A stretch of 64,000 nt of DNA. It comes from Cyanosarcina radialis HA8281-LM2 (GTDB lineage Bacteria; Cyanobacteriota; Cyanobacteriia; Cyanobacteriales; CCAP-1448). The position numbers and the translations under genes are program-made. The stretch is from assembly GCA_019359615.1 (NCBI GenBank), contig JAHHHA010000026.1:1-64000 (forward strand). Direction: 5' to 3'. Positions 7,260 through 24,986 of this stretch are shown piece by piece; the first letter of the stretch is position 1, and each line of letters starts with the position of its first letter. The notes beneath the pieces were generated by a model that saw only the letters and a list, made by a program, of their open reading frames with translations, searched no databases and had not been told where the DNA came from.

Positions 7260-7384
7260 AGGAGAGGGGGAGATGGGGAGATGGGGAGATGGGGAGATAA
7301 TGAGGAATTATTCACTTCACACTCCACACTTAAAACTTAACACTTCCTCAACTCCTGTACAGACGTTGCATGCAACGTCTCTAC
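7260..7384. repeat. GGGGAGAT tandem repeats and a GTACAGACG palindrome
   Basis: After ugd there is a run of GGGGAGAT units (about 7262-7299). A 28-bp near-perfect palindrome, GTACAGACGTTGCA / TGCAACGTCTCTAC, follows at 7357-7384. The palindrome belongs to a dispersed family also seen at 31598-31625, 34748-34775, 39498-39527, 54083-54110 and 55531-55556. It may act as a terminator for the convergent genes here. Confidence 0.6.
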
Positions 7385-7387
7385 CTC

Positions 7388-7792: not shown

Positions 7793-7903
7793 GCTGACTT
7801 ACTCCCATGCAGAGATTAATTTCGTCATGATAGTACAAATGAACTACTTTGGCAAGCGATCGAGCTTTTTATGGTGTGTAGAAGTCAATAAAATCTCTTA
7901 CAT

Positions 7904-8035
7904 AAATCAAAACTTCGGATATAAAATGCTTTATTGACCACAGATGTAGACGCGATAGCGGCTTCCCGCAGGGTACACAGATAAACACAGATAAAAGTGA
8001 TGATTTATCGACTTTTGCCAGAAGTCTATAAAGCC
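7904..8035. repeat. Dispersed repeat sharing a core with 24999-25114
   Basis: The stretch reads AAATCAAAACTTCGGATATAAAA, then TTGACCACAGATG and ACACAGATAAACACAGATAAA. The same ordered blocks occur at 25014-25078. This copy carries an extra insertion (TAGACGCGATAGCGGCTTCCCG, about 7947-7968) and lacks the clear terminal inverted repeats of the other copy. No gene is supported in 7793-8048; a plus-strand open frame at 7719-7937 is considered spurious. Confidence 0.6.
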
Positions 8036-8048
8036 GCTCGAAATTGCC

Positions 8049-8654: not shown

Positions 8655-8883
8655 TACCAGTCCCCAGCATTACCAGCAATCCCAAACCATTAAGAACTGG
8701 ATAAATTTTGTCTAGCTTCAAAAATCTTCCCGTGTGAACGCTCATCAACAGATTACCTACATTATCTATATTCAACCACTCATCTAAAATTACATAGCCC
8801 ATACCAGTTAAACCAGTTAAAAACAAAGGCAAAAATACAATAAGTGCAAGCAATCGATGATACTTCCGAAAATTGCGAATCAT
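8614..8883 (-). CDS. Small PepSY-associated membrane protein
   Basis: An 89-residue protein with a basic N-terminus (MIRNFRKYHRLLALIVFLPL) and two or three transmembrane helices (about 10-35 and 65-85). It resembles the first helices of PepSY-associated membrane proteins, which are common in cyanobacteria as short stand-alone genes. The function is unknown. It overlaps the convergent upstream gene by 41 bp, which is unusual but tolerable for tail-to-tail genes. Confidence 0.65.
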   Translation of the reverse strand: MIRNFRKYHRLLALIVFLPLFLTGLTGMGYVILDEWLNIDNVGNLLMSVHTGRFLKLDKIYPVLNGLGLLVMLGTGISMTGLFRPRRQS

Positions 8884-8954
8884 AGAGCGACCTAAACTAC
8901 CAGATGTTAATATCTAAATCCTGACAAAAAACTAACTTCCCAACCTTAAAAACC

Positions 8955-9000
8955 CTCTGCGAACCTTTGCGCTCACCTTTGCGCCCCTCTGCGTTAAAAA
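8955..9000. repeat. CTTTGCGC simple repeat tract
   Basis: The tract CTCTGCGAACCTTTGCGCTCACCTTTGCGCCCCTCTGCG is made of degenerate CTTTGCGC units followed by a nine-A run. The same kind of unit encodes the C-terminal tail of malQ (about 1555-1575). It lies between the PepSY gene and agrE, which diverge. Confidence 0.5.
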
Positions 9001-9048
9001 AAAATCTCTTCGCCCCAGCAGGATCGCTTTAAAATAGATCTTACGTCA

Positions 9049-9064
9049 TGTAGCAAACTCTACA
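9049..9064 (+). promoter_or_regulatory. Candidate NtcA binding site upstream of agrE
   Basis: TGTAGCAAACTCTACA fits the full NtcA consensus TGTA-N8-TACA exactly (GTA at 9050-9052, TAC at 9061-9063). A possible -10 element, TATCTAAAT at 9087-9095, lies about 23 bases downstream, the spacing expected for NtcA-activated promoters. The agrE ATG is at 9127. Nitrogen control of an arginine-catabolic gene makes biological sense, but binding is inferred from the sequence alone. Confidence 0.55.
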
Positions 9065-9126
9065 GAATTCGTCGATCGAAGATCGGTATCTAAATTTAAG
9101 GATAAATTCCATCTCTAGATAAATTT

Positions 9127-11235
9127 ATGGCATCTCAAATTCGCTTCCTCATGTGTTCTCCCGATCGCTACGACGTGGATTACGTCATCAATCCATGGAT
9201 GGAGGGCAACATTCACAAATCCTCGCCCGAACGCGCCAAAGAGCAATGGCAAAAGCTACACCACATCCTCAAAGAAAAGGCGATCGTCGATTTAGTCGAA
9301 CCTCAAGGAGGCTGGCCCGATATGGTATTTACTGCCAACGCTGGCTTAGTTTTAGGAGATAACGTGGTCTTGAGTCGTTTTTTCCATAAAGAACGCCAAG
9401 GAGAAGAACCTCACTTCAAACGGTGGTTTGAGTCGCAAGGTTACACGGTACACGAACTCCCCAAAGACTTACCATTTGAAGGTGCAGGCGATGCGCTGCT
9501 CGATCGAGAAGGCTGCTGTTTGTGGGCGGGATACGGCTTTAGATCGGAACTAGATTCCCACCCCTATTTGGCAAAATGGCTCGATATCGAAGTTCTATCC
9601 CTGCGATTGATGGACGATCGCTTTTATCACTTAGATACCTGCTTTTGTCCCCTCACAGATGGCTATTTGCTCTATTATCCGCCAGCATTTGATGCTTATT
9701 CCAACCGCTTAATTGAAATGCGGATTCCAGCCGAGAAGCGAATTGCGGTAGAAGAAGCAGATGCAGTTAAATTCGCCTGCAACGCCGTCAACATCGATAA
9801 AGTAGTGGTGCTAAATCAAGCTAGCGACGGCTTAAAACAACGTTTAGCTGAAGCTGGATTTACCGCGATCGAAACCCCCTTAACCGAATTTCTCAAAGCT
9901 GGAGGCGCAGCCAAATGTTTGACATTGCGCGTTACCGAACCAGTGCGGACGGAAGTTTGCGCGATCGTCTCGGTAGAAAGTCGCATCATTCGGTTAGAAG
10001 GACATTTGCTCGATTCTGGCTTGATCAACCGTGCTTTAGATAAAATCGTCGAAGCTGGCGGTAGTTTCCAAGTCCTGAAGTTCGATTTAGGAGAGCAACG
10101 CCAAAGTACATCTTCGGCTGAAATTAAGGTAACGGCTCCCTCTCACGAGGTCATGGAGGCGATTTTATCGCAATTAATCGACTTAGGAGCCTTAGATTTA
10201 CCCCAAGAAGAACGAGATGCCAAGCTAGAACCAGTAACTAGTGCTGGCGTGGCTCCCGATGACTTCTACGTGACGACGATCTATCCTACCGAGGTGCGAG
10301 TTAACGGCGAGTGGATGCGGGTACAAAATCAGCGAATGGATGGAGCGATCGCAGTTAGTGCTGATGGTAAGGTAGCGCAGTGTAAGTTACTCCGAGATTT
10401 AGAAATCAGCGATCGCGTGGTAGTAGACATCCTCGGTATCCGTACCGTCAGAAAGCCAGAATCGAGAGAACAGCGTAACGCTCAAGAATTCAGTTTCATG
10501 TCGGCTGGGGTTTCCAGCGAACGCCGGGTCGAATTGATCGTAGAACAAGTAGCCTGGGAATTGCGCCAAATCCGCGATCGCGGCGGTAAAGTAGTCGTTA
10601 CGGCTGGTCCCGTAGTGATTCATACTGGCGGCGGCGAACACTTATCCCAACTGATCCGCGAAGGTTACGTGCAAGCCTTGTTAGGCGGAAATGCGATCGC
10701 CGTCCACGACATGGAACAAGCTTTAATGGGAACTTCCCTCGGTGTCGATATGCAGCGGGGAGTCGCCGTCCGAGGGGGACACCGCCATCACCTGAAAGTT
10801 ATTAACGCCATCCGGCGCTGCGGTAGTATCGCTCAAGCTGTCGAGAAAGGAGTAATCAAAAGTGGGGTGATGTACGAATGCGTGAAGCACCAAGTTCCCT
10901 TCTGTCTGGCAGGTTCCATCCGCGATGACGGGCCGTTACCCGATACCCAGATGGATTTAATTAAAGCCCAAGAAGAATACGCCCGGTTATTAGAAGGTGC
11001 AGAAATGATTTTGATGCTCTCTTCCATGCTGCACTCGATCGGGGTCGGAAATATGACTCCTGCGGGTGTGAAGATGGTGTGCGTCGATATCAACCCAGCC
11101 GTAGTCACCAAATTGAGCGATCGAGGTTCGATCGAGTCTCTCGGTGTCGTCACCGATGTCGGCTTATTCCTGAGTTTGTTAATCCAACAGTTGGATAAAC
11201 TCACCAGTCCTTACCGCGCTTTAATTGGAACCTAA
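9127..11235 (+). CDS. agrE: Bifunctional arginine dihydrolase / ornithine cyclodeaminase (AgrE/ArgZ)
   Basis: This 702-residue enzyme catabolises arginine. The N-terminal guanidine-group-modifying domain converts arginine to ornithine, CO2 and ammonia; the C-terminal LOR/SDH-type domain converts ornithine to proline in the AgrE orthologue. Catalytic residues known from Synechocystis ArgZ fall at the same numbers: N71 (FTANAG), H168 (FYHLDT) and C264 (GGAAKCLTL). The C-terminal half begins near residue 280 and includes the Gly-rich HTGGGEHLSQLIREGYVQAL and SSMLHSIGVGNMTPAGVK. The enzyme drives an arginine/ornithine cycle and cyanophycin mobilisation in cyanobacteria. A perfect NtcA-type box lies 63 bp upstream of the ATG, suggesting nitrogen control. 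Confidence 0.95.
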   Translation: MASQIRFLMCSPDRYDVDYVINPWMEGNIHKSSPERAKEQWQKLHHILKEKAIVDLVEPQGGWPDMVFTANAGLVLGDNVVLSRFFHKERQGEEPHFKRWFESQGYTVHELPKDLPFEGAGDALLDREGCCLWAGYGFRSELDSHPYLAKWLDIEVLSLRLMDDRFYHLDTCFCPLTDGYLLYYPPAFDAYSNRLIEMRIPAEKRIAVEEADAVKFACNAVNIDKVVVLNQASDGLKQRLAEAGFTAIETPLTEFLKAGGAAKCLTLRVTEPVRTEVCAIVSVESRIIRLEGHLLDSGLINRALDKIVEAGGSFQVLKFDLGEQRQSTSSAEIKVTAPSHEVMEAILSQLIDLGALDLPQEERDAKLEPVTSAGVAPDDFYVTTIYPTEVRVNGEWMRVQNQRMDGAIAVSADGKVAQCKLLRDLEISDRVVVDILGIRTVRKPESREQRNAQEFSFMSAGVSSERRVELIVEQVAWELRQIRDRGGKVVVTAGPVVIHTGGGEHLSQLIREGYVQALLGGNAIAVHDMEQALMGTSLGVDMQRGVAVRGGHRHHLKVINAIRRCGSIAQAVEKGVIKSGVMYECVKHQVPFCLAGSIRDDGPLPDTQMDLIKAQEEYARLLEGAEMILMLSSMLHSIGVGNMTPAGVKMVCVDINPAVVTKLSDRGSIESLGVVTDVGLFLSLLIQQLDKLTSPYRALIGT

Positions 11236-12831: not shown

Positions 12832-14121
12832 GTGCCTCCCCCATTTTTATCAGGCGCAAATTCACGGGAATCTCTATCGGGAAGCTTCTGGCGAGCCTTC
12901 GGCACTTCACGAAATCGATCGCCCGATCGATCTTTTCGTCTGATTCTCTATCTGGAATGGATTCTGCTCGGTTTGACCTTTCTGCTCCAGATTCGCCCGG
13001 CTCGTTTTGGGATCGATGCTACGGATCGGCTGCTCGTCATCCTGATTCTGATTGGCTTCGGGCTAATGGGACTCAAGCTCCCCACTGGTAAAACCAGCCA
13101 CAAAGTTCTCTACACGGCACTAGAAATTGGGTTGCTGGTCTTAACTTTTTTACTCGATCGACGCACCGGATTTTTCCCGCTCCTCGGTTTGATAATTGCC
13201 ATTCGCAGTTGCCTGATTTTTCAGCCAACCGGACGGTTAATCGCCGCCGGATTGGTGTTTGCGCTCTCAGCGCTGATGGTATTTGAAGGCAGGCCGTATC
13301 GGCTCCCCAGACATCGACCTGGAATACCTAGTGAGTCGATCGCTAATACGATTTTGACCCTCCACCTCAACACGGCGATCGGCTTTGGATTGACGCTATT
13401 GTTTATCCTATTGTTAGTCAATGCCTTACTAGCAGAACGAGAGAGTCGAGAAAAATTGTTGCTGGCCAACGAGCGATTGCGTCAATACGCCATTCAAGTC
13501 CAAGATCGAGCCACGCTGCAAGAGCGAAATCGGATCGCCCGCGAAATTCACGATGCCCTCGGTCACGCGCTTACGGCTCAAAGCATTCAGTTAGAAAATG
13601 CCCTGCTGTTTTTGCCCCCGGAGGCCGAGAGAAGTAAGTCTTTTTTGCAAGAGTCGCAGCGACTCGGTGCCAGTGCCTTACAGGAAGTGCGGCGATCGAT
13701 TGTCACTTTGCGATCGAATCCCCTAGAGGGAAAATCGTTGGAAAATGCGATCGCCGAACTCACGGCCGATTTCCAAACCATGACTGCAATTACTCCTGAT
13801 TTGACCCTGCAAATTTCCCCGTCGATGCCAACCGAGATCGCTACTGCGCTCTACCGCATCTTGCAAGAAGCACTGACAAACATTGCTAAACATAGCGCGG
13901 CCACTGAGGTCGAGATCGGACTTCAAGAAAGCCGCGAAACCATTCAGCTTCAGATTGCAGATAACGGCCGGGGATTCGAGCCAAACCAAAACACCACTGG
14001 ATTCGGGCTGCAAGGCATCCGAGAGCGAACTGTAGCTTTAGGGGGACAATTCTTTTTAACCAGTCATCCCGGTCGAGGCTGTCGCCTGACTGTATCCATT
14101 CCGTTGCCGAGGCAGTTATAG
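12832..14121 (+). CDS. NarL-family sensor histidine kinase
   Basis: A 429-residue membrane kinase. The first 35 residues are hydrophilic; five or six transmembrane helices span about 38-205, followed by a coiled linker. The HisKA_3 dimerisation motif RNRIAREIHDALGHALTAQ carries phospho-acceptor H240. A C-terminal HATPase domain follows with an N box (LQEALTNIAKHS) and G boxes (DNGRGFEP, GFGLQGIRERTVALGG). It starts with GTG at 12832. HisKA_3 kinases normally pair with NarL/LuxR regulators, usually the next gene. Here the next gene of that type is at 24318, on the far side of the restriction island, so the pair appears to have been split. It diverges from the Spy-like gene. Confidence 0.9.
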   Translation: MPPPFLSGANSRESLSGSFWRAFGTSRNRSPDRSFRLILYLEWILLGLTFLLQIRPARFGIDATDRLLVILILIGFGLMGLKLPTGKTSHKVLYTALEIGLLVLTFLLDRRTGFFPLLGLIIAIRSCLIFQPTGRLIAAGLVFALSALMVFEGRPYRLPRHRPGIPSESIANTILTLHLNTAIGFGLTLLFILLLVNALLAERESREKLLLANERLRQYAIQVQDRATLQERNRIAREIHDALGHALTAQSIQLENALLFLPPEAERSKSFLQESQRLGASALQEVRRSIVTLRSNPLEGKSLENAIAELTADFQTMTAITPDLTLQISPSMPTEIATALYRILQEALTNIAKHSAATEVEIGLQESRETIQLQIADNGRGFEPNQNTTGFGLQGIRERTVALGGQFFLTSHPGRGCRLTVSIPLPRQL

Positions 14122-14491
14122 CAGTTCTCATACCAAATTCGATCGAAGTCGCTTCCTTTAAGTTTTCTCCTCGATCGTTGCGGTACAAATCCCAAAGTAC
14201 CGATAATGGCTCTTTAGAGACTTTAATAACGGAAGTTGCCAGTTATACTAAATCCGGTTTTTAAAGCCATGAATCCAGCCCTCACCCTAAATCCCTCTCC
14301 CGTGGGAGAGGGACTTTAACCGCCAGTAATTGGCATTGAAACTTCCTGGTTGCTAATGTCCGAACTGGTTTGACTCTGGCTCCCCTTCTCCCTGGGGAGA
14401 AGGGGCCGGGGGATGAGGGCAAACCCACTTTTGCTAAGCGGATTTGAGATCGAGTCAAATTTTGGATAAAGTCAGATCTTCTAAGATAACG
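14122..14491. repeat. Spacer with a MITE-like AATCCGG element before hsdM
   Basis: This spacer contains no convincing gene. An element runs from AAATCCGGTTT (14250-14260) to AAGCGGATTT (14436-14445), the same end sequences as the 12015-12133 element. Inside are a CCCTCTCCCGTGGGAGAGGG hairpin (about 14291-14310) and a CCCCTTCTCCCTGGGGAGAAGGGG hairpin (about 14382-14405). A lone ATACCAAATTCGATCGAAG end-like sequence lies at about 14131. The element directly precedes the restriction operon and may mark the left border of the island. Confidence 0.5.
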
Positions 14492-16543
14492 ATGGCAGAC
14501 CATCACCAACTCTCGAATTTCATTTGGCAAGTAGCCGATCTGCTGCGCGGACCGTATCGTCCGCCGCAGTACGAGCGGGTGATGTTGCCGCTGACGGTGC
14601 TGCGTCGGTTTGATTGCGTGCTGGCTCCGACGAAGGCAAAGGTGCTTCAGGCTTACACCAGTAAGTGGCGACATAAAACCGAAACAGAACAAGATTTTAT
14701 TCTAAATAACATCGCAGGACAGCGTTTTCACAACCATTCAGAATTTAGTTTTGAAGGAACCGATGACGGTTCGGGCAAGCGTAAAGGTGGACTAAAAGGC
14801 GATCCAGACAATATCGATCGGCATTTGATTAACTACATCAACGGATTTTCTAAAAATATTCGAGATATCTTCGATTTCTTTGATTTCAGTAAAGAAATCG
14901 AACAGATGCGAATCCATAATATTCTTTATCTGGTCGTTTCTAAGTTTTGCGAGATCGATCTGCACCCAGATTCGTTAGACAACATCCAGATGGGGTTATT
15001 ATTTGAGGATTTAATTCGGCGATTTAATGAAGAGGCTAATGAGACAGCCGGGGATCACTTTACGCCGCGAGAAGTGATTCGATTGATGGTGGATTTGCTG
15101 TTCGATCCGGATGATGCGGTGCTGACGCAACCTGTTATCTGCAAGATGCTCGATCCTACCTGCGGGACGGGTGGGATGCTGGCAGAGGCACAGAATCATT
15201 TACGGGAAAATAATGCTAAGGCAAAGTTATACGTGTTCGGGCAAGATTTTAATCCTCGTGCCTATGCGATCGCAGCTTCCGATCTGTTGCTCAAAGAAAA
15301 TTACAACAGCGATATTCGGTTTGGCGATACGTTGATTGATGACCAATTCCCCGACGATCGCTTCGATTATTTGATTGCGAATCCGCCGTTTGGAGTCGAT
15401 TGGAAGAAGCAGCAATCAGAGGTGAAAAAGGAACACGATCGCTATGGTTTTGCAGGCCGATTTGGGGCGGGTTTGCCCCGCGTAAACGATGGCTCGCTGC
15501 TGTTTTTGCAGCACATGGTCAGTAAGTTTGAACTAGTCGATCCAGAGGGGAAAAAGAATGGCTCGCGGTTGGCGATCGTCTTTAATGGTTCGCCGCTGTT
15601 TACGGGGGGTGCGGGCAGTGGGGAAAGCGAGATTCGCAAGTGGATTATTGAAAATGACTGGCTAGAAGCGATCGTGGCGCTGCCGGAGCAGATGTTTTAT
15701 AACACGGGAATTGGAACGTATATATGGGTAGTGACGAATCGCAAGCAAGCCGATCGTAAAGGTAAGGTGCAGTTGATTGACGGGCGGGAGCTATGGCAAC
15801 CGATGCGGCGCAGCTTAGGAAATAAGCGGCGCTATATGGGTGAGGCTGATATTGCGTCGGTGGTGCAGGAGTATGGCAGGTTTGCGGAAACGAAGATTAG
15901 CAAAATTTTTGATAACGAGGACTTTGGTTACAATCGGGTGCCGATAGAGCGTCCGTTACGGTTGTTGTATGAGATGACGCTAGAGCGCAAGAGCAATTTT
16001 TTGGATCGGGCATCGCATTTATTGGACGACGTACAAGTCATCGATAAAAAGTTGGGACGCGAGCCTCGGACGGATTGGAATGAGTTCGATGAGTTGCTAA
16101 AGCAATTGTTGGGACAGCGGGAAAGTAAATGGACGGCGGCGGAACGAAAGTTTTTCCGGGAGACATTTACAGTGGTAGAACCGGAAGCCGAGCCTGTAAT
16201 TGCCAAAGAGCGCAAAGCCAAAAAGGAACCGAACGCGCGGGTGTGGGGTTGGTTTCCGGTGGGAGATGGCAAGTGGGAGCGGCTGTATGAGGCAGATACG
16301 AAGCTGCGGGACTATGAGAATGTGGAGTTAAAAGATGAGGTGGTGCGTTACTTCCTCGCCGAAGTGGAACCCCATGTAGCCGATGCTTGGGCAGATGGGG
16401 AGAAGATTCGCAGTGCCTATGAGATTAATTTCAATCGGTATTTTTATGAGTATCAGCCGCCAAGACCGCTAGCGGAAATTGATGCAGATTTGCGAGAAAT
16501 GGAGGAGCAGATCTTGCATTTGCTGCGAGAGGTGATTGGATGA
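14492..16543 (+). CDS. hsdM: Type I restriction-modification DNA methyltransferase subunit HsdM
   Basis: HsdM is the adenine-N6 methyltransferase subunit of a type I restriction-modification enzyme. From the ATG at 14492 the protein is 683 residues, beginning MADHHQLSNFIWQVADLLRG. The N-terminal helical domain comes first. It is followed by the SAM-binding motif DPTCGTGGM at residue 221 and the catalytic NPPF at residue 297. A C-terminal extension follows that contacts HsdS. It is the first gene of an operon that continues into hsdS with a 4-bp overlap. An upstream in-frame ATG at 14444 adds 16 residues derived from the adjoining repeat and is not favoured. Confidence 0.95.
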   Translation: MADHHQLSNFIWQVADLLRGPYRPPQYERVMLPLTVLRRFDCVLAPTKAKVLQAYTSKWRHKTETEQDFILNNIAGQRFHNHSEFSFEGTDDGSGKRKGGLKGDPDNIDRHLINYINGFSKNIRDIFDFFDFSKEIEQMRIHNILYLVVSKFCEIDLHPDSLDNIQMGLLFEDLIRRFNEEANETAGDHFTPREVIRLMVDLLFDPDDAVLTQPVICKMLDPTCGTGGMLAEAQNHLRENNAKAKLYVFGQDFNPRAYAIAASDLLLKENYNSDIRFGDTLIDDQFPDDRFDYLIANPPFGVDWKKQQSEVKKEHDRYGFAGRFGAGLPRVNDGSLLFLQHMVSKFELVDPEGKKNGSRLAIVFNGSPLFTGGAGSGESEIRKWIIENDWLEAIVALPEQMFYNTGIGTYIWVVTNRKQADRKGKVQLIDGRELWQPMRRSLGNKRRYMGEADIASVVQEYGRFAETKISKIFDNEDFGYNRVPIERPLRLLYEMTLERKSNFLDRASHLLDDVQVIDKKLGREPRTDWNEFDELLKQLLGQRESKWTAAERKFFRETFTVVEPEAEPVIAKERKAKKEPNARVWGWFPVGDGKWERLYEADTKLRDYENVELKDEVVRYFLAEVEPHVADAWADGEKIRSAYEINFNRYFYEYQPPRPLAEIDADLREMEEQILHLLREVIG

Positions 16544-17874
16544 ATAGTGTAGCAAATCAATGTTCAAACCATAGAAATATAGAATTAGATTGGCTCCAGA
16601 AAATCCCTGAGCATTGGCAGATATTGACACTACGACGAGTTGTAAAAAATTTTGTTGATTATCGTGGACAAACACCTGAAAAAGTAGAGATGGGTATTCC
16701 TCTAATCACTGCTAAAAATGTGAAAGATGGATTCCTTAGTTTTCAAGGTTCCCAAGAATTTATTCCTTTTGAACTGTATAGCGATTGGATGGTGAGAGGA
16801 TTGCCTGAAGTTGGCGATGTAATGGTAACAACCGAAGCTCCGTTAGGGAATGTAGCGCAAATTGTTGACAGTAACGTCGCTCTAGCACAAAGACTTATCT
16901 TGCTAAAGACATATTCTGGGATTATTCATAATGACTACTTAAAATACTACTTTATGTCCTTAAGTGGAAAAAGTGAGTTATTTAGTCAGGCTACTGGTTC
17001 TACTGCCGAAGGAATTAAAGCATCGAAATTCAAGGGAATCCTACTATGTGTTCCATCTTTATTGGAACAAAAGCAAATTGCTGACTATCTCGATCGCGAA
17101 ACCCAAAAAATCGATGCTCTAATTACCGCCAAGAAACGACTTCTAGAACTGCTGGTGGAAAAAAGGCGATCGCTAATCACCCATATGGTGACTCACGGGT
17201 TAGATGCGGATGCACCGATGAAAGATTCTGGGGTTGAGTGGTTGGGTAAAATTCCTGAAAATTGGCAAGTCATTAGCTTATCCTTTCTGGCACAAGTCAA
17301 AACAGGAGTCACAAAAGGACGAGATTTAGGAAGTGCCGAAACAGTTCGCGTTCCCTATCTACGAGTCGCTAACGTACAAGATGGTTATGTAGATTTAGAA
17401 GATGTAGCTGATATTGAAGTTTTGCCTGAAGAAGTTGCCTCATTTAGCTTGAAAAAGGGGGATGTCTTAATGAATGAAGGTGGTGATGCTGACAAGTTAG
17501 GGCGCGGTGCAGTGTGGAAGGGGGCGATCGAACCTTGCTTGCATCAAAATCACGTTTTTGCTGTTAGATGTTATGGAGTTGAACCTGAGTGGCTGTCAAC
17601 CGTGACTAGTTCAAGTTACGCAAAAGCTTATTTTGAATCTCGTGCAAAACAAAGCACCAATCTGGCTTCAATCTCATCTACTAATCTTAAGGAACTTCCA
17701 GTCATTTTGCCTCCAAGGGAGATGCAGATACAAATAGTCAATATATTGCGAAACTCATTAGCTAAGTTAGATGCTCTTTGTAATGCTGCTAATACAACGA
17801 TCGCTCTCCTTCAAGAACGCCGCACTTCCCTAATTTCCGCTGCTGTCACAGGTCAACTCAAGATCGCCGACTAG
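16540..17874 (+). CDS. hsdS: Type I restriction-modification specificity subunit HsdS
   Basis: HsdS reads the bipartite target sequence for the HsdMS and HsdRMS complexes. The 444-residue protein has two target-recognition domains, each opening with the same conserved phrase: LDWLQKIPEHWQILTLRRV at about 14, and VEWLGKIPENWQVISLSFL at about 231. Each is followed by a coiled-coil spacer; the first begins EQKQIADYLDRETQKIDALI, and the second ends LLQERRTSLISAAVTGQLK. The start overlaps the hsdM stop (ATGA). A second, degenerate copy of the last 26 or so codons lies at 18627-18707, downstream of the toxin-antitoxin pair. Confidence 0.93.
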   Translation: MNSVANQCSNHRNIELDWLQKIPEHWQILTLRRVVKNFVDYRGQTPEKVEMGIPLITAKNVKDGFLSFQGSQEFIPFELYSDWMVRGLPEVGDVMVTTEAPLGNVAQIVDSNVALAQRLILLKTYSGIIHNDYLKYYFMSLSGKSELFSQATGSTAEGIKASKFKGILLCVPSLLEQKQIADYLDRETQKIDALITAKKRLLELLVEKRRSLITHMVTHGLDADAPMKDSGVEWLGKIPENWQVISLSFLAQVKTGVTKGRDLGSAETVRVPYLRVANVQDGYVDLEDVADIEVLPEEVASFSLKKGDVLMNEGGDADKLGRGAVWKGAIEPCLHQNHVFAVRCYGVEPEWLSTVTSSSYAKAYFESRAKQSTNLASISSTNLKELPVILPPREMQIQIVNILRNSLAKLDALCNAANTTIALLQERRTSLISAAVTGQLKIAD

Positions 17875-17930
17875 CCGCGTGTTCTTCCAAAGCCAACGCC
17901 TATACAACTATCAAAAAACTGGAGTCCATT

Positions 17931-18182
17931 ATGGAAATCACAATTGCCAATCTCAGCGAAGAAGATAGAAGAAAACTCGAATATATTCAACAAAAAACCG
18001 ATCGGGATCTACAATCTGCTATCTCAGCTTCAATTGATGCTTACTATCAGAAACTTCACGAAGTTAGCGATCCTCTCAGTCGTCTCAAGCAAAGTCCTTT
18101 GATTGCAAGTTTTCAAGGAGATCCAAATTTAGCAGAAAAATCTGAGGAGATATTTCGCTCCTTGATGAGTGATGAACGATGA
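17931..18182 (+). CDS. Small antitoxin-like protein (VapB role)
   Basis: An 83-residue protein directly before a PIN-domain gene, overlapping it by 4 bp (ATGA). The N-terminus (MEITIANLSEEDRRKLEYIQ) and a middle helix ending SASIDAYYQKLHE suggest a ribbon-helix-helix or related dimerising fold. The C-terminus (SRLKQSPLIASFQGDPNLAE) resembles the tail of VapB-type antitoxins that wraps the toxin. The position and overlap are the main evidence for the antitoxin role. The gene is on the same strand as, and inside, the type I restriction operon. Confidence 0.7.
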   Translation: MEITIANLSEEDRRKLEYIQQKTDRDLQSAISASIDAYYQKLHEVSDPLSRLKQSPLIASFQGDPNLAEKSEEIFRSLMSDER

Positions 18183-18604
18183 TTATTGCTGACACTGGTT
18201 TCTTCCTGGCACTGTTTAATGCTAACGATAATTACCATCAAAGAGCAATTACCGTGTTAAATAGCCTCACTGAATCACTCATCACAACACATCCTGTGAT
18301 TTGCGAAACTTGCTACCTACTAGTTTCTAGGGGTGGCGGGATTAGACAAGAGTGCCAATTTTTAATCGATGTTTCAGAACAGGCTTTCCAAATATTCGAT
18401 CTACAATTCATCCATTTTCAACGAATGGCATCTTTAATTCAGCAGTATGTAGAGTTACCGATGGACTACGCTGACGCTTCACTCGTGGTGCTGGCAGAAC
18501 ACTTGCAACATGGCAAAATTCTTACTGCCGATCGTCGAGATTTCGCAATCTACCGCTGGAATGCTGTTAACCCTTTTGAGAATTTATTCTTAGATTTTGT
18601 ATAA
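18179..18604 (+). CDS. PIN-domain ribonuclease toxin (VapC-like)
   Basis: A 141-residue PIN-domain protein. The acidic active-site residues are in place: D5 (MIIADTGFFLALFN), E43 (VICETCYLL), D99 (DYADASLVVLAEH) and D118/D121 (ILTADRRDF). VapC toxins cleave RNA, often tRNA or rRNA, when the partner antitoxin is lost. It is translationally coupled to the antitoxin by the ATGA overlap. The pair separates hsdS from the Septu-like genes and is flanked by two copies of the hsdS 3' end, which suggests it arrived by insertion or recombination. Confidence 0.85.
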   Translation: MIIADTGFFLALFNANDNYHQRAITVLNSLTESLITTHPVICETCYLLVSRGGGIRQECQFLIDVSEQAFQIFDLQFIHFQRMASLIQQYVELPMDYADASLVVLAEHLQHGKILTADRRDFAIYRWNAVNPFENLFLDFV

Positions 18605-18626
18605 GCGTACTGAATTTCTGACACGC

Positions 18627-18735
18627 GATCGATTCGCTCTCCTCCAAGAACGCCGCACATCCCTAATTTCTGCTACTGTCACAGGACAACTTCAAATTAC
18701 TGACTAGCCCCGTGTTTCTTAAAAGCCTCACCCTC
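18627..18735 (+). pseudogene. Duplicated hsdS 3' end (remnant)
   Basis: The frame ending with TAG at 18705-18707 reads LLQERRTSLISATVTGQLQ then ITD, against LLQERRTSLISAAVTGQLK then IAD at the end of hsdS. The similarity continues past the stop into CCGTGTTTCTTAAAAGCC compared with GCGTGTTCTTCCAAAGCC after hsdS. The copy has no upstream frame and is a remnant. With the true hsdS end at about 17797-17897 it forms a direct repeat of roughly 100 bp flanking the VapBC pair, and it runs into the start of the following ATPase gene. Confidence 0.85.
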
Positions 18736-20004
18736 ACCAACGTTCGTACTTTCAATCATGCTGAATTTAACTTTCAATTCGGCATGAACTTGCTCGTTGG
18801 TATCAACGCGGTGGGCAAATCCACAGTGCTTGATGCCATCCGCATTCTGCTATCCCAATCCCTCCTTAAAGTCTCCCAATGTCGCAGCAAACCCCTTAAA
18901 TTTGAAGACTCAGATATTGCGATCGATAAAAACTACTTGACCGCAGAGATCGGATTTGAAATTGCTGACACTGAATTTCGTTACCTCGTCCATCAGTCAA
19001 GATCGCTATACATAGCAGCATCCGATCGTACAGGCGAAGTTCGCGATCTAGCTTATACCAGCGATCGCCGCGACCTTACCCCTACCGAAAAAGAGATTCC
19101 CAAATCTCTCAAAAACGCACGTCAACAACCCCTAGCCCTCTATTTTTCCGCTCGCCGCGCCCTCGCCAATAGCAACAGATTTACCAGCAAAGCCAAAGGA
19201 CTTGCCGCTGCGTTTGCAGACGCACTCGACCATCGCGAACTTCGCCTCATGGAACTCGCAGACTGGTGGCTTGCCCAAACCGCCCTTGCCGCCGAAAACG
19301 CTCCCAACGCTCAAAGACACTTGGATGCTCTCAACCTCGCCATTAGTCGCACGATCGACACCTGTGCTAACCTTCGCGTCCACCGAGAAACCTTCAATTA
19401 CCAAGACAAAAACGGTAAACTCATTCCCAAAACTGCGATCGCCCTCCTCATCGAAAAATCTGGACAACCCTTTGACTTGGGACAACTTTCTGATGGCGAA
19501 CGGGGTATTCTTGCCCTCGCTCTCGACCTCACCCGCCGACTCTCTCAAGCCAACCCCCACTTAGAAGACCCGCTGCAAGCCCAAGCCGTTGTTCTCATCG
19601 ACGAACTCGATCTGCACCTCCATCCCAAATGGCAACGGGCGATCGTCGAAAAACTCACCAGCACCTTCCCCAACTGCCAATTCATCGCTACCACCCACTC
19701 CCCCCAAATCATCGGCGAAGTCCCTCCAGAAAGCATTATCCTGCTGGAAGAAGGACAGCCACCCCTCCGCCCCAGCCAATCCCTCGGCATGGATACCGAC
19801 TGGATTCTCAAGTACCTCATGGGGGCAACCACCCGCAATCTGGAAACCGAAACCGAACTCAAACGAATTGCCGACCTCATCGAAACTGAAGACTATGACG
19901 AAGCCACTGAGGCGATCGATACCCTGCGCGATCGCATCGGCGAATTTCCCGAACTCGTTCGCCTTCAAACCCGGATCGATCGGCTGCAACTGCTAGGTGA
20001 GTAA
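18712..20004 (+). CDS. ptuA: Septu-like (PtuA-type) AAA/ABC-class ATPase
   Basis: A 430-residue SMC/RecF-like ATPase. The Walker A motif GINAVGKST is at residues 30-38. An ABC-type signature LSDGERGILALAL comes before a Walker B segment VVLIDELDLHLHPKWQ and an H-loop ATTHSPQ. The C-terminal 70 residues are helical and acidic. The next gene, one base later, encodes a TIGR02646-type HNH nuclease. That gene pair is the hallmark of the Septu anti-phage system, in which the ATPase controls the nuclease. The GTG start at 18712 lies inside the duplicated hsdS-end segment. A general RloA-like role cannot be excluded. Confidence 0.75.
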   Translation: MFLKSLTLTNVRTFNHAEFNFQFGMNLLVGINAVGKSTVLDAIRILLSQSLLKVSQCRSKPLKFEDSDIAIDKNYLTAEIGFEIADTEFRYLVHQSRSLYIAASDRTGEVRDLAYTSDRRDLTPTEKEIPKSLKNARQQPLALYFSARRALANSNRFTSKAKGLAAAFADALDHRELRLMELADWWLAQTALAAENAPNAQRHLDALNLAISRTIDTCANLRVHRETFNYQDKNGKLIPKTAIALLIEKSGQPFDLGQLSDGERGILALALDLTRRLSQANPHLEDPLQAQAVVLIDELDLHLHPKWQRAIVEKLTSTFPNCQFIATTHSPQIIGEVPPESIILLEEGQPPLRPSQSLGMDTDWILKYLMGATTRNLETETELKRIADLIETEDYDEATEAIDTLRDRIGEFPELVRLQTRIDRLQLLGE

Positions 20005-20727
20005 ATGAAACGCATTTTTAAAAGTCCCAGTCCCAAAGAACTCACCCAGTGGTTAAAAAGCCAGCAGAAGATTACTCAAGGGAAGAACTGTAGCTATAAA
20101 GACGATCTAGGTACAGATATCAAAGCGATCGTCAAACAGTGCCTCCTCGAAGACCAAGGCTATCTGTGCTGCTACACGGGCATCCGCATCGATCGGGCCC
20201 AATCCCACATCGAACACTTCAAACCTCAGAGTCGCTTCTTTGAAAATCATGAAGATGTAGATTACAACAACCTATTTGCTGCTTTTCCTGGCTCTGACTA
20301 TGAGAAAAAGCACGGCTCTTGTCCCTTTGGGGCTCATGCTAGACGAGACTGGTACGATGAAGACCAATTCATCAGCCCTCTCAGTTCCCACTGCGAAAGT
20401 GCTTTCCACTTCAATCTAAACGGCGAAATTCAAGCATCTCCCAACAATACCGCCGCTAAAACTACGATCGATCGCCTCAACCTCGCCCACGCATCCCTGA
20501 CCGAAATGCGCCAACAGGCGATCGAATCGCTTCTATTTGAATCTGAGATCGGCCTAAAACAAGCTGAAAATCTCTTAGAAAAGATCTACGATCGCAATAC
20601 CAAAGGTCAGTTTCGTCCCTTTTGTTTCGTCCTCAAACAGGCGTGCCAAGAGTATATTCGACGAGGCAAACAAAAGCAAACTCGCAACAAAGCTATCCAA
20701 TCTCAAGGTAAAAGACAAAAAAAATAA
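20005..20727 (+). CDS. ptuB: Septu-like (PtuB-type, TIGR02646) HNH endonuclease
   Basis: A 240-residue HNH-type nuclease. The core is YLCCYTGI (C55, C56), SHIEHFKPQS (H68, E70, H71) and DYNNLFAAF (N88, N89), then SCPFGAH. This is the CxYC/IEHxxP/NL pattern of the TIGR02646 family used as PtuB in Septu systems. The C-terminal third is helical and ends in a Lys/Gln-rich tail. Its ATG follows the ATPase stop directly, so the two are translated together. Inferred role: degrade nucleic acid on phage infection under control of the ATPase. A repeat element follows before the next gene. Confidence 0.78.
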   Translation: MKRIFKSPSPKELTQWLKSQQKITQGKNCSYKDDLGTDIKAIVKQCLLEDQGYLCCYTGIRIDRAQSHIEHFKPQSRFFENHEDVDYNNLFAAFPGSDYEKKHGSCPFGAHARRDWYDEDQFISPLSSHCESAFHFNLNGEIQASPNNTAAKTTIDRLNLAHASLTEMRQQAIESLLFESEIGLKQAENLLEKIYDRNTKGQFRPFCFVLKQACQEYIRRGKQKQTRNKAIQSQGKRQKK

Positions 20728-20775
20728 GCATCTGCGCTTAAATAAAAGGGTACAATAGCAAGTAGTTGAGGAATC

Positions 20776-20852
20776 ATATCAAATCCGGTTAAACACCCAT
20801 AATTAAGATCGATTGTAGTTGGGTTGAACGGAGTGAAACCCAACATCCCAGG
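20776..20852. repeat. AATCCGGTTAAACACCCAT dispersed element
   Basis: The sequence TATCAAATCCGGTTAAACACCCATAATTAAGATCGAT, then GTTGGGTTGAACGGAGTGAAACCCAACA, closely matches 55337-55430. GTTGGGTT and AACCCAAC form an inverted repeat. It interrupts the restriction operon between the HNH gene and the coiled-coil gene and may act as a terminator or attenuator there. Confidence 0.6.
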
Positions 20853-20906
20853 AGAGTTGAGTTTCTGAGAAAATAGCTAAAAATTGACAATTATAACAAT
20901 AAGATT

Positions 20907-21194
20907 ATGACAGCATCGAACGTACCAAACGATCGCGATCGGGAAATCGATCGCCAGTTTAGAGATTTAAGTCGCAGGGTTGACCGACTGGAATACGCCC
21001 AAATCACTCCTCAAGAGTTTACGAGAGCATTCGATCGCGTGTATGACGAAATCGATGCCCTTGAAGACACCGTGAACGAACGATTCGATCGAGTTGATGA
21101 GAGATTCGAGCGGCTTGAAGGCGAGGTCAGAGAATTAAATCGCAAATTTGACATTGTGATGCAACATATTACCGGACAAGGAGGAACGAGCTAA
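20907..21194 (+). CDS. Small coiled-coil protein inside the restriction operon
   Basis: A 95-residue, highly charged protein predicted to be almost entirely coiled coil: DREIDRQFRDLSRRVDRLEY, then EIDALEDTVNERFDRVDERF and LEGEVRELNRKFD repeat the abcdefg heptad pattern. There is no catalytic motif. It is 17 bp upstream of hsdR on the same strand. Similar small coiled-coil proteins are common in cyanobacteria, and I cannot assign a function. A link with restriction or with the Septu-like pair is suggested only by position. Confidence 0.65.
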   Translation: MTASNVPNDRDREIDRQFRDLSRRVDRLEYAQITPQEFTRAFDRVYDEIDALEDTVNERFDRVDERFERLEGEVRELNRKFDIVMQHITGQGGTS

Positions 21195-21211
21195 TTTAAG
21201 GGGGCGAAACC

Positions 21212-24200
21212 ATGAGCGTTCATACTGAAGCTAGTTTTGAAAGCGCGATCGAAACCCACCTGCTCGATCGCGGCTACACTCGCCTCAATCCCAAAAAATT
21301 CGACTGCGATCGCGCCCTTTTCCCCGACCCCGCCATTAGCTTCATCCAGCAAACCCAAGCTAAAGAGTGGGAACGCCTCGAAAAACTCCACGGTGACAAC
21401 ACCGCTACTCAAATCCTCGCCGACCTCTGCAAATGGCTCGATACCTACGGTAGCCTGCAAGTTTTGCGCCACGGGTTCAAATGCTACGGTCGCACCCTCC
21501 GCATCGCCACTTTTAAAGCCGCCCACAGCCTCAACCCGGAACTCGAAGCTCAATACCAAGCCAACCAACTCACTATTACTCGCCAACTCCAATACCGCAA
21601 ACCCAGTAAAAAAACTAAATCTACCTACAGCACGGGTACTGACACCAAAAGCGGCATTATCGACTTAACCATCAGCCTCAACGGTATCCCGATCGTTACC
21701 CTGGAACTGAAAAATCCCCTCACCGGGCAAACTGCCGAAGACGCAAAGCAGCAATACTGCCAAGATCGCGACCCCCGCGAACCCATCTTTGAATTCAAGC
21801 GCCGTAGCCTAGTCCATTTTGCCCTCGATACCGAAGTCGCGTGGATGACTACCCGCCTTGCCGGAAACGCCACCTACTTTCTGCCCTTCAACCGAGGTAA
21901 CGATGGCGGCGCGGGCAACCCGCTAGACCCCACAGGCCGCACCTACCGCACCGCTTACTTGTGGGAAGAAGTCTTACAGCGGGATAGTTGCCTCGACTTG
22001 TTCGCCCGCTTCCTCCACATCCAAATCGACGACAAGCAAGACGACGACGGCCGGAAATTCAAAAAAGAAACCCTCATATTCCCCCGCTACCACCAACTCC
22101 AAGCCGTTCGCACCCTCACCCAAGCCGCCCAGCAAGAAGGGATCGGGCACAACTACTTAATCGAACACTCGGCTGGGAGCGGTAAAAGCAACACCATCGG
22201 CTGGCTCGCCCATCGCCTGGCCTCCCTTCACAACCAAGCCAACGATCGCCTCTTCGATAGCGTCATTGTCATCACCGACCGCCGCGTCCTCGATCGACAA
22301 CTGCAAAACACGATCTACCAATTCGAGCATCGTCAGGGTGTCGTCCAAAAAATCGATAAAGACTCCAAACAACTGACTCAAGCCCTAGAATCTGCTGTCC
22401 CCATTATTATCACCACCCTGCAAAAATTTCCCCACGTCGCCAAACAACTCCTCAAACTCGCCGAAGAACGCGGCAGCACTACATTACCCACTCGCCGCTG
22501 TGCCATCATCATTGACGAGGCCCACAGTTCCCAATCTGGCCAAACCGCGATCGAACTCAAAAGCGTTCTCGGTGGCGAACAACTGCAACAAGCAGCCAAA
22601 CAACAGGCAGAAGAGGAAGGTTTAGCAGATTTGGCGGAACTTTTTAGAACCATGGCAGCGCGATCGCATCAAGCCAATCTCAGTTTTTTCGCCTTTACCG
22701 CTACTCCCAAACACAAAACCCTCAAATTCTTCGGTCGCGACGGCCAAGCTTTTCACCAATACACCATGCGCCAAGCGATTGAAGAGGGCTTCATCATGGA
22801 TGTGTTGCAAAACTACACTACCTACAAAACTTATTACAAACTCATCCACAACTGTGCCGAAGATCCTCACGTCGAGCGCAAAGCGGCTGCCGCCGCCCTG
22901 GCCCGCTTCCTGCGCCTCCACCCCCACAACATCGCCCAAAAGACCGAAATCGCGATCGAACATTTTCACGCCGTCACCCGTCACAAAATTGGCGGCAGAG
23001 CCAAAGCCATGGTGGTCGCCGGATCTCGCCTCGAAGCAGTGCGCTACAAGCAAAGTTTCGATCGCTACATCCAAGAAAAAGGCTACCCGATTAAATCCCT
23101 GGTGGCCTTTTCGGGCATAGTTGAAGATGACAAAATTGCGGGTCAGGTTTACACCGAAGAAATTATGAACGGCATCCGGGAAAGCGAACTGCCCGATCGA
23201 TTCGCCACTAACGATTACCAAGTCTTACTCGTGGCTGAGAAATACCAAACTGGTTTCGACCAACCTTTACTTCACAGTATGTATATCGATCGCCGTCTTG
23301 CAGGTATCCAAGCCGTCCAAACTCTCTCTCGCCTCAACCGCATCCATCCCCTTAAAGAAGACACCTTCGTTCTCGATTTCGTCAACGATCGCGAAGAAAT
23401 CCGCGCCGCGTTCGGGCAGTTCTACGAAGGGGCAGAAATGGGGGAGGAAGCCACGCCAGAGCAGCTTTACCAATTAATCGCCGAGCTAGATCGAGCCGGA
23501 ATTTACCTGAACGAAGAGGTCGATCGCTTCTGTAGCATCTATTTCAAACCCAAAAAACGCCAAAATCAGTCCGACCATCAGGCGATGAATGCGGCGCTAG
23601 ATCCTGCTGTCGATCGCTTTATTCACTGGCAAACCGATAACCCCGATGCTGCGACTATCTGGCGCGATCGACTTACTGCCTTCCGCCATCTCTACACCTT
23701 TCTCAGCCAAGTCATTCCCTACCAAGACTCCGACCTCGAAAAACGCTACGTCTTCCTTCGCTACCTATCTACCAAACTTCCTCGACGCGATCGCCAACTG
23801 CAATACGACTTCGATGGCGAGATTCAACTTGAATACTATCGCCTGCAAAAAATTAGCGAAGGCTCGATCGACCTCAAACCAGGTTACAGCCATCCTCTAG
23901 ACGGCCCCAAAGCAGTCGGTAGCGGTCGGGTTAAAGAAAGCAGCGTTCTACTCTCTCAACTCGTAGACATCATCAACGATCGCTGCGGTACTGACTTCAA
24001 CCACGCAGACCAACTCTTCTTCGACCAGTTAGTTGAAACTGCGGTCAATTCCGACGAACTACAACAAGCCGCCAAAGCTAACTCCAAAGATAACTTCGAT
24101 CTCTTATTCAAGCAAGTTCTCCAACTTTTGTTGGTCGAGAGAGTCGATCGAAATGAAGCCATTTTTGCCCAGTATATGAACGATCGCGCCTTCCAAAACG

Positions 24201-24253
24201 TGGTCGCTGACTGGTTGAGCGCAGAAGTCTATCAACGGCTGAGCAAACTATAG
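21212..24253 (+). CDS. hsdR: Type I restriction-modification endonuclease subunit HsdR
   Basis: HsdR translocates and cuts DNA in the type I complex. The 1013-residue protein has an N-terminal nuclease domain with GIIDLTISLNGIPIVTLELK (about 147-168; D and ExK of the PD-(D/E)XK site). Two RecA-like helicase domains follow, with Walker A SAGSGKSN (about 320), DEAH (about 434) and a TATP motif (FTATPKH). The second domain includes EKYQTGFDQPLLHSMYIDRR and TLSRLNRI. The C-terminal helical region of about 250 residues binds the methyltransferase core. The frame is intact, so the system may be functional. It is the last gene of the island. Confidence 0.95.
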   Translation: MSVHTEASFESAIETHLLDRGYTRLNPKKFDCDRALFPDPAISFIQQTQAKEWERLEKLHGDNTATQILADLCKWLDTYGSLQVLRHGFKCYGRTLRIATFKAAHSLNPELEAQYQANQLTITRQLQYRKPSKKTKSTYSTGTDTKSGIIDLTISLNGIPIVTLELKNPLTGQTAEDAKQQYCQDRDPREPIFEFKRRSLVHFALDTEVAWMTTRLAGNATYFLPFNRGNDGGAGNPLDPTGRTYRTAYLWEEVLQRDSCLDLFARFLHIQIDDKQDDDGRKFKKETLIFPRYHQLQAVRTLTQAAQQEGIGHNYLIEHSAGSGKSNTIGWLAHRLASLHNQANDRLFDSVIVITDRRVLDRQLQNTIYQFEHRQGVVQKIDKDSKQLTQALESAVPIIITTLQKFPHVAKQLLKLAEERGSTTLPTRRCAIIIDEAHSSQSGQTAIELKSVLGGEQLQQAAKQQAEEEGLADLAELFRTMAARSHQANLSFFAFTATPKHKTLKFFGRDGQAFHQYTMRQAIEEGFIMDVLQNYTTYKTYYKLIHNCAEDPHVERKAAAAALARFLRLHPHNIAQKTEIAIEHFHAVTRHKIGGRAKAMVVAGSRLEAVRYKQSFDRYIQEKGYPIKSLVAFSGIVEDDKIAGQVYTEEIMNGIRESELPDRFATNDYQVLLVAEKYQTGFDQPLLHSMYIDRRLAGIQAVQTLSRLNRIHPLKEDTFVLDFVNDREEIRAAFGQFYEGAEMGEEATPEQLYQLIAELDRAGIYLNEEVDRFCSIYFKPKKRQNQSDHQAMNAALDPAVDRFIHWQTDNPDAATIWRDRLTAFRHLYTFLSQVIPYQDSDLEKRYVFLRYLSTKLPRRDRQLQYDFDGEIQLEYYRLQKISEGSIDLKPGYSHPLDGPKAVGSGRVKESSVLLSQLVDIINDRCGTDFNHADQLFFDQLVETAVNSDELQQAAKANSKDNFDLLFKQVLQLLLVERVDRNEAIFAQYMNDRAFQNVVADWLSAEVYQRLSKL

Positions 24254-24317
24254 CGAACCTAGATCGGTTGTAATATTTCCGGCTCCTCTCTCCCATAAAA
24301 AGAAACTTCGATTTCAG

Positions 24318-24986
24318 ATGATTGAGAATAAAATTAGGGTGTTAGTCGTAGACGATCGCTCGATCGTGCGTCAAGGGTTGACAAGTTTGCTGGATGCCAA
24401 ACCCGATTTAGAAGTTGTAGGAGAAGCAGAAAACGGGCAACAAGCGATCGCGCTGGTAGAAGCCCTTCAGCCGGACGTGGTATTGATGGACGTGCGGATG
24501 CCCGTGATGGATGGAGTGGCTGCCACCCGACAAATTTCTCAACAATTTAGTCAAACTAAGGTCTTAGTTCTCAGCACTTTCGATGACGATGAATACGTGT
24601 CTCAAGCGATGCGAGTTGGGGCGCGAGGCTATCTGCTCAAAGACATCCATTCTGACGATCTCGCTGCCGCCATTCGCGCCGTGCATAAAGGCTACACCCA
24701 ACTAGGTCCTGGATTGCTCGAAAAAGCGATTGCCCCTAATTCACCTCCGATTCCTACTGAACCGACTCACTTACCGCCGGAATTAGCTGGGTTGACACCG
24801 AGAGAACGCGAGGTTCTGAGTTTAATCGTTGCTGGGGAGAGCAATCGCGAGATCGCTCAATCGCTCTATATTTCAGAGCGAACGGTCAAAAATCACATCA
24901 CTCATATTCTCAGCCAGTTGAACGTGCGCGATCGCACTCAAGCTGCAATGTTCGCTAGTCCATTTCTATCTCTGCTATCAGATTGA
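24318..24986 (+). CDS. NarL/LuxR-type response regulator
   Basis: A 222-residue regulator. The N-terminal receiver domain has VLVVDDRSIVRQGL and phospho-acceptor D58 in VLMDVRMPVMDG, with the conserved Lys in GYLLKDIHSDDLA. The C-terminal LuxR HTH is LTPREREVLSLIVAGESNRE followed by RTVKNHITHILSQL. This is the expected partner type for the HisKA_3 kinase at 12832, and there is no other NarL-type regulator in the window. It lies 64 bp after hsdR on the same strand, so it may now be read partly from the restriction operon. Confidence 0.93.
   Translation: MIENKIRVLVVDDRSIVRQGLTSLLDAKPDLEVVGEAENGQQAIALVEALQPDVVLMDVRMPVMDGVAATRQISQQFSQTKVLVLSTFDDDEYVSQAMRVGARGYLLKDIHSDDLAAAIRAVHKGYTQLGPGLLEKAIAPNSPPIPTEPTHLPPELAGLTPREREVLSLIVAGESNREIAQSLYISERTVKNHITHILSQLNVRDRTQAAMFASPFLSLLSD

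Follow-up and report, generated by a model that had tools for sequence, protein, structure and literature searches.

The window, a stretch of 64,000 nucleotides (nt) from the cyanobacterium Cyanosarcina radialis HA8281-LM2 (contig JAHHHA010000026.1, positions 1 to 64,000), carries a complete type I restriction-modification (RM) gene set, with ptuA and ptuB, the two genes of a complete Septu effector pair, lying between its hsdS and hsdR. HsdM, HsdS and HsdR are encoded on the same strand, and the catalytic motifs of HsdM and HsdR are intact. The features of the locus are listed below; handles of the form L043 denote individual loci used for comparison.

14492..16543, plus strand: hsdM, type I adenine methyltransferase (PADLOC model PDLC03029, E = 7.8e-261; NPPF motif)
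16540..17874, plus strand: hsdS, specificity subunit, overlapping hsdM by 4 nt
17931..18182, plus strand: putative antitoxin of a VapBC-like pair, named by its position and its L043 homologue
18179..18604, plus strand: PIN-domain protein, putative toxin (PF01850, 4.7e-10)
18634..18727, plus strand: second copy of the hsdS 3′ end, reaching into the start of ptuA (78 of 94 nt, 83%, identical to 17801-17894)
18712..20004, plus strand: ptuA, ABC-type ATPase, GTG start, 430 amino acids (aa)
20005..20727, plus strand: ptuB, HNH nuclease, ATG start, 240 aa (H71, N89)
20907..21194, plus strand: small open reading frame (ORF) of 95 aa between ptuB and hsdR, coiled-coil-like by eye
21212..24253, plus strand: hsdR, type I motor and nuclease (SWI2_SNF2, ResIII and HSDR_N domains; D151, E165-x-K167, SAGSGKS, IIDEAH)
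14122..24317, plus strand: block dividing a two-component gene pair (approximate interval)

A sequence-only reading of this DNA had described ptuA and ptuB as lying on one strand between hsdS and hsdR with no intergenic bases. The ORFs and the neighbours called by Pfam and PADLOC agree with this, and the two genes abut exactly. The same reading had overlooked the small-ORF/PIN gene pair and the duplicated hsdS 3′ end that intervene between hsdS and ptuA, as well as the 95-aa ORF between ptuB and hsdR. The ORF at 17931..18182 matched no family in the Pfam and PADLOC scans; the 95-aa ORF likewise matched no Pfam or PADLOC family, and its two NCBIfam matches were both under cut-off. The hsdM reading frame is open from TTG 14444, and its start is probably ATG 14492, giving 683 aa as in L043. 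The NCBIfam hsdM and hsdR models match the window proteins under their cut-offs (85 of 243 and 200 of 285 bits, respectively).

The Septu-like identity proposed for the pair is borne out by profiles, solved structures and predicted folds, all of which place the genes in PtuA and PtuB. Both proteins fall inside these families by PADLOC profile (PtuA, PDLC00271, E = 8.1e-119; PtuB, PDLC00346, E = 1.9e-62), and the HNH gene, which had been called TIGR02646-like, scores 76.9 bits with that NCBIfam model against a cut-off of 52.15. PtuA contains the Walker A motif GINAVGKST, the signature LSDGE, LIDELD and TTHSP. The Walker A lysine, the Walker B aspartate and glutamate and the H-loop histidine are kept in 31 of 31 homologues, and LSDGE is present in 27 of 31 with close variants in the remaining four. 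PtuB H71 and N89 are equally invariant (31/31). For the restriction subunits, the NPPF motif of HsdM is kept in 30 of 30 homologues and the D, E and K of HsdR in 29 of 30, the exception being a gap in L214, a partial row. When solved structures were searched, the top matches of PtuA were chains of retron Ec83/Ec78 and E. coli Septu PtuA, and all five matches of PtuB were PtuB chains from Septu or retron complexes. AlphaFold models built from relatives of the operon (predicted local distance difference test scores of 84.0 for PtuA and 90.6 for PtuB) gave a consistent picture in Foldseek. The predicted PtuA fold matched 9e90 (E = 9.3e-27) and 8eea (3.5e-25), and that of PtuB matched 8eea_G (E = 2.1e-9); the top matches were mostly Ec83/Eco7/Ec78 PtuAB, with 8eea and 8ee4 among the best folds.

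PtuAB also serves as a retron effector, and a retron reading of the locus was rejected on two grounds. The neighbours of ptuA are hsd, small-ORF and PIN genes with no reverse transcriptase (RT) beside it, and the four RVT_1 matches in the genome all lie on contigs other than the window's. The retron-Ec78 equivalogs NF041760 and NF041761 match the pair under the NCBI cut-offs (233.1 of 500 and 94 of 150 bits). The PrrC family was not among the Pfam, NCBIfam or PADLOC matches (for PADLOC, the best 25 of 145 for PtuA and the best 25 of 30 for PtuB). TIGR04435, a hypothetical equivalog named for a AAA ATPase associated with restriction systems, matches weakly (41.5 of 300 bits).

The order hsdM-hsdS-ptuA-ptuB-hsdR occurs well beyond this strain. 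Both outcomes that the sequence-only reading had named as refuting it, genes outside PtuA/PtuB and an order confined to this strain, are thereby contradicted. The genome collection was searched with PtuA, and 80 of 288 relatives were kept, with cyanobacterial loci added. A synteny scan found hsd genes adjoining ptuA at 22 loci, a count that takes in the locus of the window itself (L035) and two duplicate pairs, L042/L044 and L053/L065. The hosts belong to Cyanobacteriota, Chloroflexota (Anaerolineales), Bacteroidota, Magnetococcales, Alphaproteobacteria and Gammaproteobacteria, several of them metagenome bins. The five-gene order was thus found in several phyla, on a plasmid and on viral-labelled contigs, and a strain-specific accident was rejected because distant bacteria share it. 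The plasmid, from Ketogulonicigenium vulgare, has the five-gene set with all four junctions overlapping; for plasmid contexts, 4 of 749 records with an HsdR match and 6 of 67 with a PtuA match were examined. Three IMG/VR contigs labelled as viral (L195, L196, L200) carry complete five-gene sets, which may be prophage-borne, satellite-borne or mislabelled.

Wherever the contig extends to hsdR (21 loci), an HNH ORF lies between ptuA and hsdR, as judged partly by eye and also by profile matches. Loss of ptuB was considered for eight hsd-linked loci at which phmmer had returned no PtuB (L047, L048, L049, L050, L054, L057, L067 and L072) and was rejected; an HNH ORF was recovered in the gap at the seven of these that reach hsdR, and at L047 by profile search. 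For L048 and L054, once thought to be without ptuB, the PADLOC PtuB model is PDLC00322. The main set contains at least two PtuB subtypes, one like PDLC00346 (the window) and one like PDLC00322 (L048, L054 and L200). The PtuB model matches 95 of 386 cyanobacterial genomes, as a profile count regardless of gene context. HsdR reaches at least 1800 bits in only 3 of these 386, in 4 of 385 genomes of the Roseovarius class and in 7 of 395 of the Neolewinella phylum, and the HsdR clade is rare because so few genomes score at this level. The recurrence in distant bacteria suggests that the two defences have been selected to work together rather than having met by chance.

To avoid choosing loci by PtuA, HsdR was used as bait, both as profile A1, itself made from PtuA-linked HsdRs, and as the window HsdR alone. 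The resulting tree has 98 rows, after omission of the duplicates L065, L157, L159, L167 and L199 and the partial rows L042, L138, L164 and L189; the label of L050, in which genes for an AAA ATPase and a subtilase put 3.8 kb between ptuB and hsdR, was set by hand. In one HsdR clade of 26 rows (SH-like approximate likelihood ratio test, SH-aLRT, 98), an ATPase-HNH pair lies between hsdS and hsdR in all 26. The sister clade of 11 rows includes five with the pair, five with other cargo and one cut by the DNA end; L197 was counted there on ptuB alone, where its DNA starts, and L172 has only 792 nt upstream. Among the remaining 61 rows, two of them cut, the pair is present in 0 of 59 assessable; hsdS is in view with no pair between in 41 of the 61, and the other 20 could hide a pair farther upstream. 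The pair therefore marks 31 of 98 rows, all in one 37-row clade, with four changes on the tree. Its place in the slot is beyond chance, because shuffled labels needed a mean of 26.7 changes and none of 500 shuffles was as low as four, in a test that near-copies favour. All eight non-seed loci obtained with the HsdR bait have the pair (L044, L153, L158, L160, L165, L166, L195 and L196), a count that omits three genomes used as seed or centre and includes L044, which had also come by PtuA.

The genes of the operon are tightly joined. At the 31 loci where junctions were measured, with start codons chosen by script, the hsdS-ptuA spacing is −11 to +4 nt in 29 and exactly −4 in 22, the ptuA-ptuB spacing is −35 to +15 nt in all 31, and the ptuB-hsdR spacing does not exceed 11 nt in 22 of 30. 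At hsdS-ptuA two loci deviate, and the window is one of them. Its segment 18634-18727 aligns with the hsdS-ptuA junction of L043, and 3 nt separate the duplicated hsdS end from ptuA, as in L043. Because this L043-like spacing is kept, a direct hsdS-ptuA junction, to judge from the sequence, probably predates the arrival of the PIN pair in the window. The duplication itself (17801-17894 and 18634-18727), which comprises the hsdS 3′ end and the first bases of ptuA and flanks the PIN pair, may be a trace of hsdS recombination. The small-ORF/PIN pair follows hsdS in the window (17931-18604) and lies between ptuB and hsdR in L043 (12140-12864), with 75% nucleotide identity over 659 nt; this toxin-antitoxin-like pair seems to move within, or to re-enter, the operon. 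PtuA and HsdR diverged in parallel (Mantel r = 0.70, n = 27; 0 of 2,000 permutations as high), compared with 0.65 for HsdS-HsdR and 0.92 for HsdM-HsdR, all of them values that include host relatedness.

PtuA lineages were compared in a first tree of 117 rows, arbitrarily rooted and without rows shorter than 330 aa or L065. One branch (SH-aLRT 96) divides 30 RM-linked PtuAs from 87 others; the latter were sorted by hsd genes and not by RT genes, and for 28 of them only about 1.5 kb beside ptuB was available. A second tree took 35 of the 87 free PtuAs and added four plasmid or E. coli and two retron PtuAs. With the retron and plasmid proteins included and the alternative lineages marked, 28 RM-linked PtuAs form a single group (SH-aLRT 95).

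Other Septu lineages occupy the same slot elsewhere. L157, from the class of the window genome, has the order hsdM-hsdS, Septu pair, HigBA-like pair (by eye), hsdR; the best PADLOC model of its Septu lineage is PDLC00278, its HNH protein is of a third subtype (PDLC00315), and its HsdR, which stands in the tree as L125, falls in the sister clade. L211 and L212, with HsdRs in the 26-row clade, carry a further PtuA pair of uncertain place and the same HNH subtype as L157. L157 and L211/L212 form long branches on the PtuA tree and were counted only as other lineages; L157 and L212 fall on the RM side of the branch in the arbitrarily rooted 117-row tree, from which L211 was absent (match below 330 aa) until it was added as a stop-to-stop ORF with its N-terminus untrimmed. 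A plasmid of Enterobacter sp. MGH 14 (NZ_CP072963.1, L226/L228) also has hsdM-hsdS-ptuA-ptuB-hsdR, with HsdM matching PDLC03027 and HsdR PDLC03041. Its PtuA is nearest to two that have no hsd neighbours, that of the E. coli smrB locus and that of Paraburkholderia. We infer that Septu pairs entered hsdS-hsdR slots at least three times; besides the main lineage, at least two others seem to have reached the slot on their own, one of them in a different type I family on the Enterobacter plasmid. That plasmid operon is preceded by a short hsdS and followed by an SprT-family protease gene, with a TnsD-family gene in the vicinity. Among 5426 E. coli genomes, 187 have relatives of the Enterobacter pair. 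An RM-embedded pair in E. coli was rejected for the three contexts examined (L229-L231), each showing a free Septu beside smrB. This smrB-locus Septu is annotated as an AAA ATPase and a hypothetical protein, or as an HNH protein in some other genomes.

The window operon is bordered by a histidine kinase gene (12832-14121) upstream of hsdM and a LuxR-type response regulator gene (24318-24986) downstream of hsdR. In L233 and L234, kinase homologues (67% and 66%) are adjacent to regulator homologues (81% and 79%), and the kinase-regulator gap in the two genomes with the nearest regulators is about 90 and under 20 nt; counting paralogues, 24 of the 29 loci examined have a kinase homologue next to the regulator. 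Because the block divides two genes that are adjacent in relatives, the operon of about 10 kb most likely arrived as one piece.

The operon was compared with known systems, the published accounts of which are cited by PMC number from excerpts here and below. It shares with stand-alone Septu the two families, the gene order, the ATPase and HNH motifs, a similar PtuA length and the best folds 8eea and 8ee4, but its pair is embedded between hsdS and hsdR and its PtuA lies across the SH-aLRT 96 branch from the 87 hsd-free PtuAs. Type I-A retrons (Ec78/Eco7 and Ec83; Septu type II in PADLOC) resemble it in fold and keep PtuAB as an effector under partner control; unlike them, the window operon has no RT, and the two retron PtuAs have 546 and 550 aa against 430. 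In EcoprrI-PrrC, a type IC operon, a nuclease is likewise embedded in a complete type I operon as a candidate fail-safe, and PrrC170 has an ABC-ATPase domain (PMC3874165, PMC12707154, PMC11555353); the window nuclease is instead a separate HNH protein, PtuB, and its gating by the type I enzyme would be by analogy alone. RptR-RMS-DarTG2 and TgvAB of V. cholerae VPI-2 also place a second defence in a complete type I operon, DarTG2 in the same slot (PMC12255303, PMC11411939), but the module described is DarTG2 or a GmrSD-like pair and not PtuAB. Another case of Septu joined to a multi-gene system, described in the PADLOC papers, is its occurrence beside or inside Hma, a helicase-methylase-ATPase set rather than HsdRMS. 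The literature searched, in which preprints on embedded defences are partly covered, contained no account of a type I operon with PtuAB inside it. Both gene families and the guard logic are known; the Septu pair embedded in a type I operon may be new so far as this literature goes.

The architecture is well supported, and the functional coupling can be argued by analogy. We propose, at a probability of roughly 0.4, that the operon is a two-tier fail-safe defence wired like EcoprrI-PrrC, with PtuAB as the effector. HsdMS would mark self DNA and HsdR would cut unmarked phage DNA, while PtuAB, produced in step with the Hsd subunits, would stay silent as long as the restriction complex is intact. 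A phage that blocks or overwhelms the complex, by an anti-restriction protein, modified DNA or loss of nucleoside triphosphates, might then free PtuAB, which would cut nucleic acid (tRNA, or nicked or single-stranded DNA) and abort the infection. The excerpted sources contain precedents. The type I complex of EcoprrI, whose operon includes PrrC, sequesters this nuclease and lets it go when phage T4 infects and inhibits the complex (PMC3874165, PMC12707154), and PrrC and PARIS are reviewed as guards that detect restriction inhibition (PMC12707154). Without msr-msd and RT, the PtuAB of retron-Eco7 is toxic (PMC11555353), and in retron Ec83 the RT and multicopy single-stranded DNA restrain PtuAB in an arrest-and-release manner (PMC12948488). 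As to targets, PtuAB of one E. coli strain cuts tRNA-Tyr (PMC13096335), that of E. coli ATCC25922 targets nicked DNA (PMC11555353) and that of retron Ec83 degrades single-stranded DNA (PMC12948488). A fail-safe, which the sequence-only reading had raised as a possibility, would fit the association across the clade, the co-divergence, the touching genes and the PrrC precedent, from which the function itself may be read by analogy. It is conceivable, though doubtful, that the operon represents a third gating mode of PtuAB besides the stand-alone and retron-restrained ones, in which a dedicated PtuA lineage, spread over several phyla, has become the constitutive partner of one type I family; together they would sense when restriction is lost or engaged and respond with a suicidal nuclease, an arrangement arrived at independently of PrrC.

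Several observations weigh against the fail-safe proposal. Half of the assessable sister-clade HsdRs (5 of 10) are without the pair. PtuB belongs to three HNH subtypes across the operons and co-diverges weakly with HsdR (r = 0.46), and the 0.70 and 0.65 of PtuA and HsdS are point values whose difference carries no significance figure. PtuA of this clade is without the roughly 100 extra residues of retron PtuA (430 against 546-550 aa) and resembles Septu PtuA in length (8ee4, 465 aa); Septu PtuA is not known to need a separate inhibitor. In related type I operons, the slot holds PIN-type pairs, an IrrE-domain protein with a PIN-like ORF, PDC-M23A/B (HamB-like), AlbA-like, Fic-like, TIR-like or FRG-like proteins, or nothing, many of these names outside the PtuAB clade being assigned by eye. 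The slot may simply be a tolerant insertion site, and embedding alone is weak evidence for coupling because unrelated toxins and defences are taken up as well. A bond is argued more strongly by the fixation of the pair throughout the clade and by the exchange of one Septu for another, with co-divergence as support.

If the slot were only a tolerant site of a mobile operon that collects cassettes, PtuAB would gain mobility and expression from it and work alone. The many unrelated cargoes fit this account, which we consider rather unlikely; in the excerpts, the site that holds DarTG2 and another gene pair is termed a potential recombination hotspot (PMC12255303), and TgvAB embedded in the V. cholerae type I operon defends without HsdR restriction activity, although against several phages the protection given by tgvAB alone fell short of that of the entire cluster (PMC11411939). 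A free-for-all slot leaves unexplained why the pair is in 26 of 26 rows of one multi-phylum clade and in 0 of 59 outside the two clades. Within the 26, moreover, replacement has been by other Septu lineages and not by other cargo (L165, L166), and PtuA-HsdR co-divergence is no lower, by its point value, than that of HsdS-HsdR.

Septu is inhibited by ATP. The two activities could act in series on one target, with no guard and no guardee. Type I translocation and cleavage would consume ATP and yield phage DNA with nicks or breaks, which PtuAB, freed from ATP inhibition or drawn to nicks, would degrade further. The motor and nuclease motifs of HsdR are intact as this requires, touching genes and co-divergence fit it equally, and the nicked-DNA targeting and single-stranded DNA degradation quoted above were reported for other PtuAB (PMC11555353, PMC12948488). 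Serial action is nonetheless rather unlikely; other Septu and retron PtuAB cut tRNA-Tyr (excerpts of PMC13096335 and PMC11555353), and tRNA cutting would not need type I products. An undescribed accessory role in restriction, with PtuAB loading on or licensing HsdR and having no defence of its own, would suit the presence of the pair in every row of the 26-row clade and its position beside hsdR, and a restriction system-associated AAA ATPase family does exist in TIGR04435, to which the match here is the weak one given above. It is very improbable, as five sister-clade HsdRs manage without the pair and the catalytic residues of a free-standing effector are retained.

Restriction enzymes, against which phages have many inhibitors, rank with the commonest defences of bacteria. 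The recurrent restriction-Septu operon, at about 8-10 kb clonable whole, would offer a compact model for how such inhibition is detected, and it would explain what holds or triggers one PtuAB lineage. The embedded Enterobacter pair and the free E. coli smrB-locus Septu, nearest PtuA relatives in the tree, provide a natural comparison.

Two further slot contents were seen. The hsdS-hsdR slot of L218, from a genome of the Neolewinella phylum, contains at 3058-7133 a candidate defence of the PDC-M23A/B type (HamB-like helicase). In the Magnetococcales operon L050, the AAA ATPase and the subtilase (6219-9846) lie between ptuB and hsdR and may be a further defence module.

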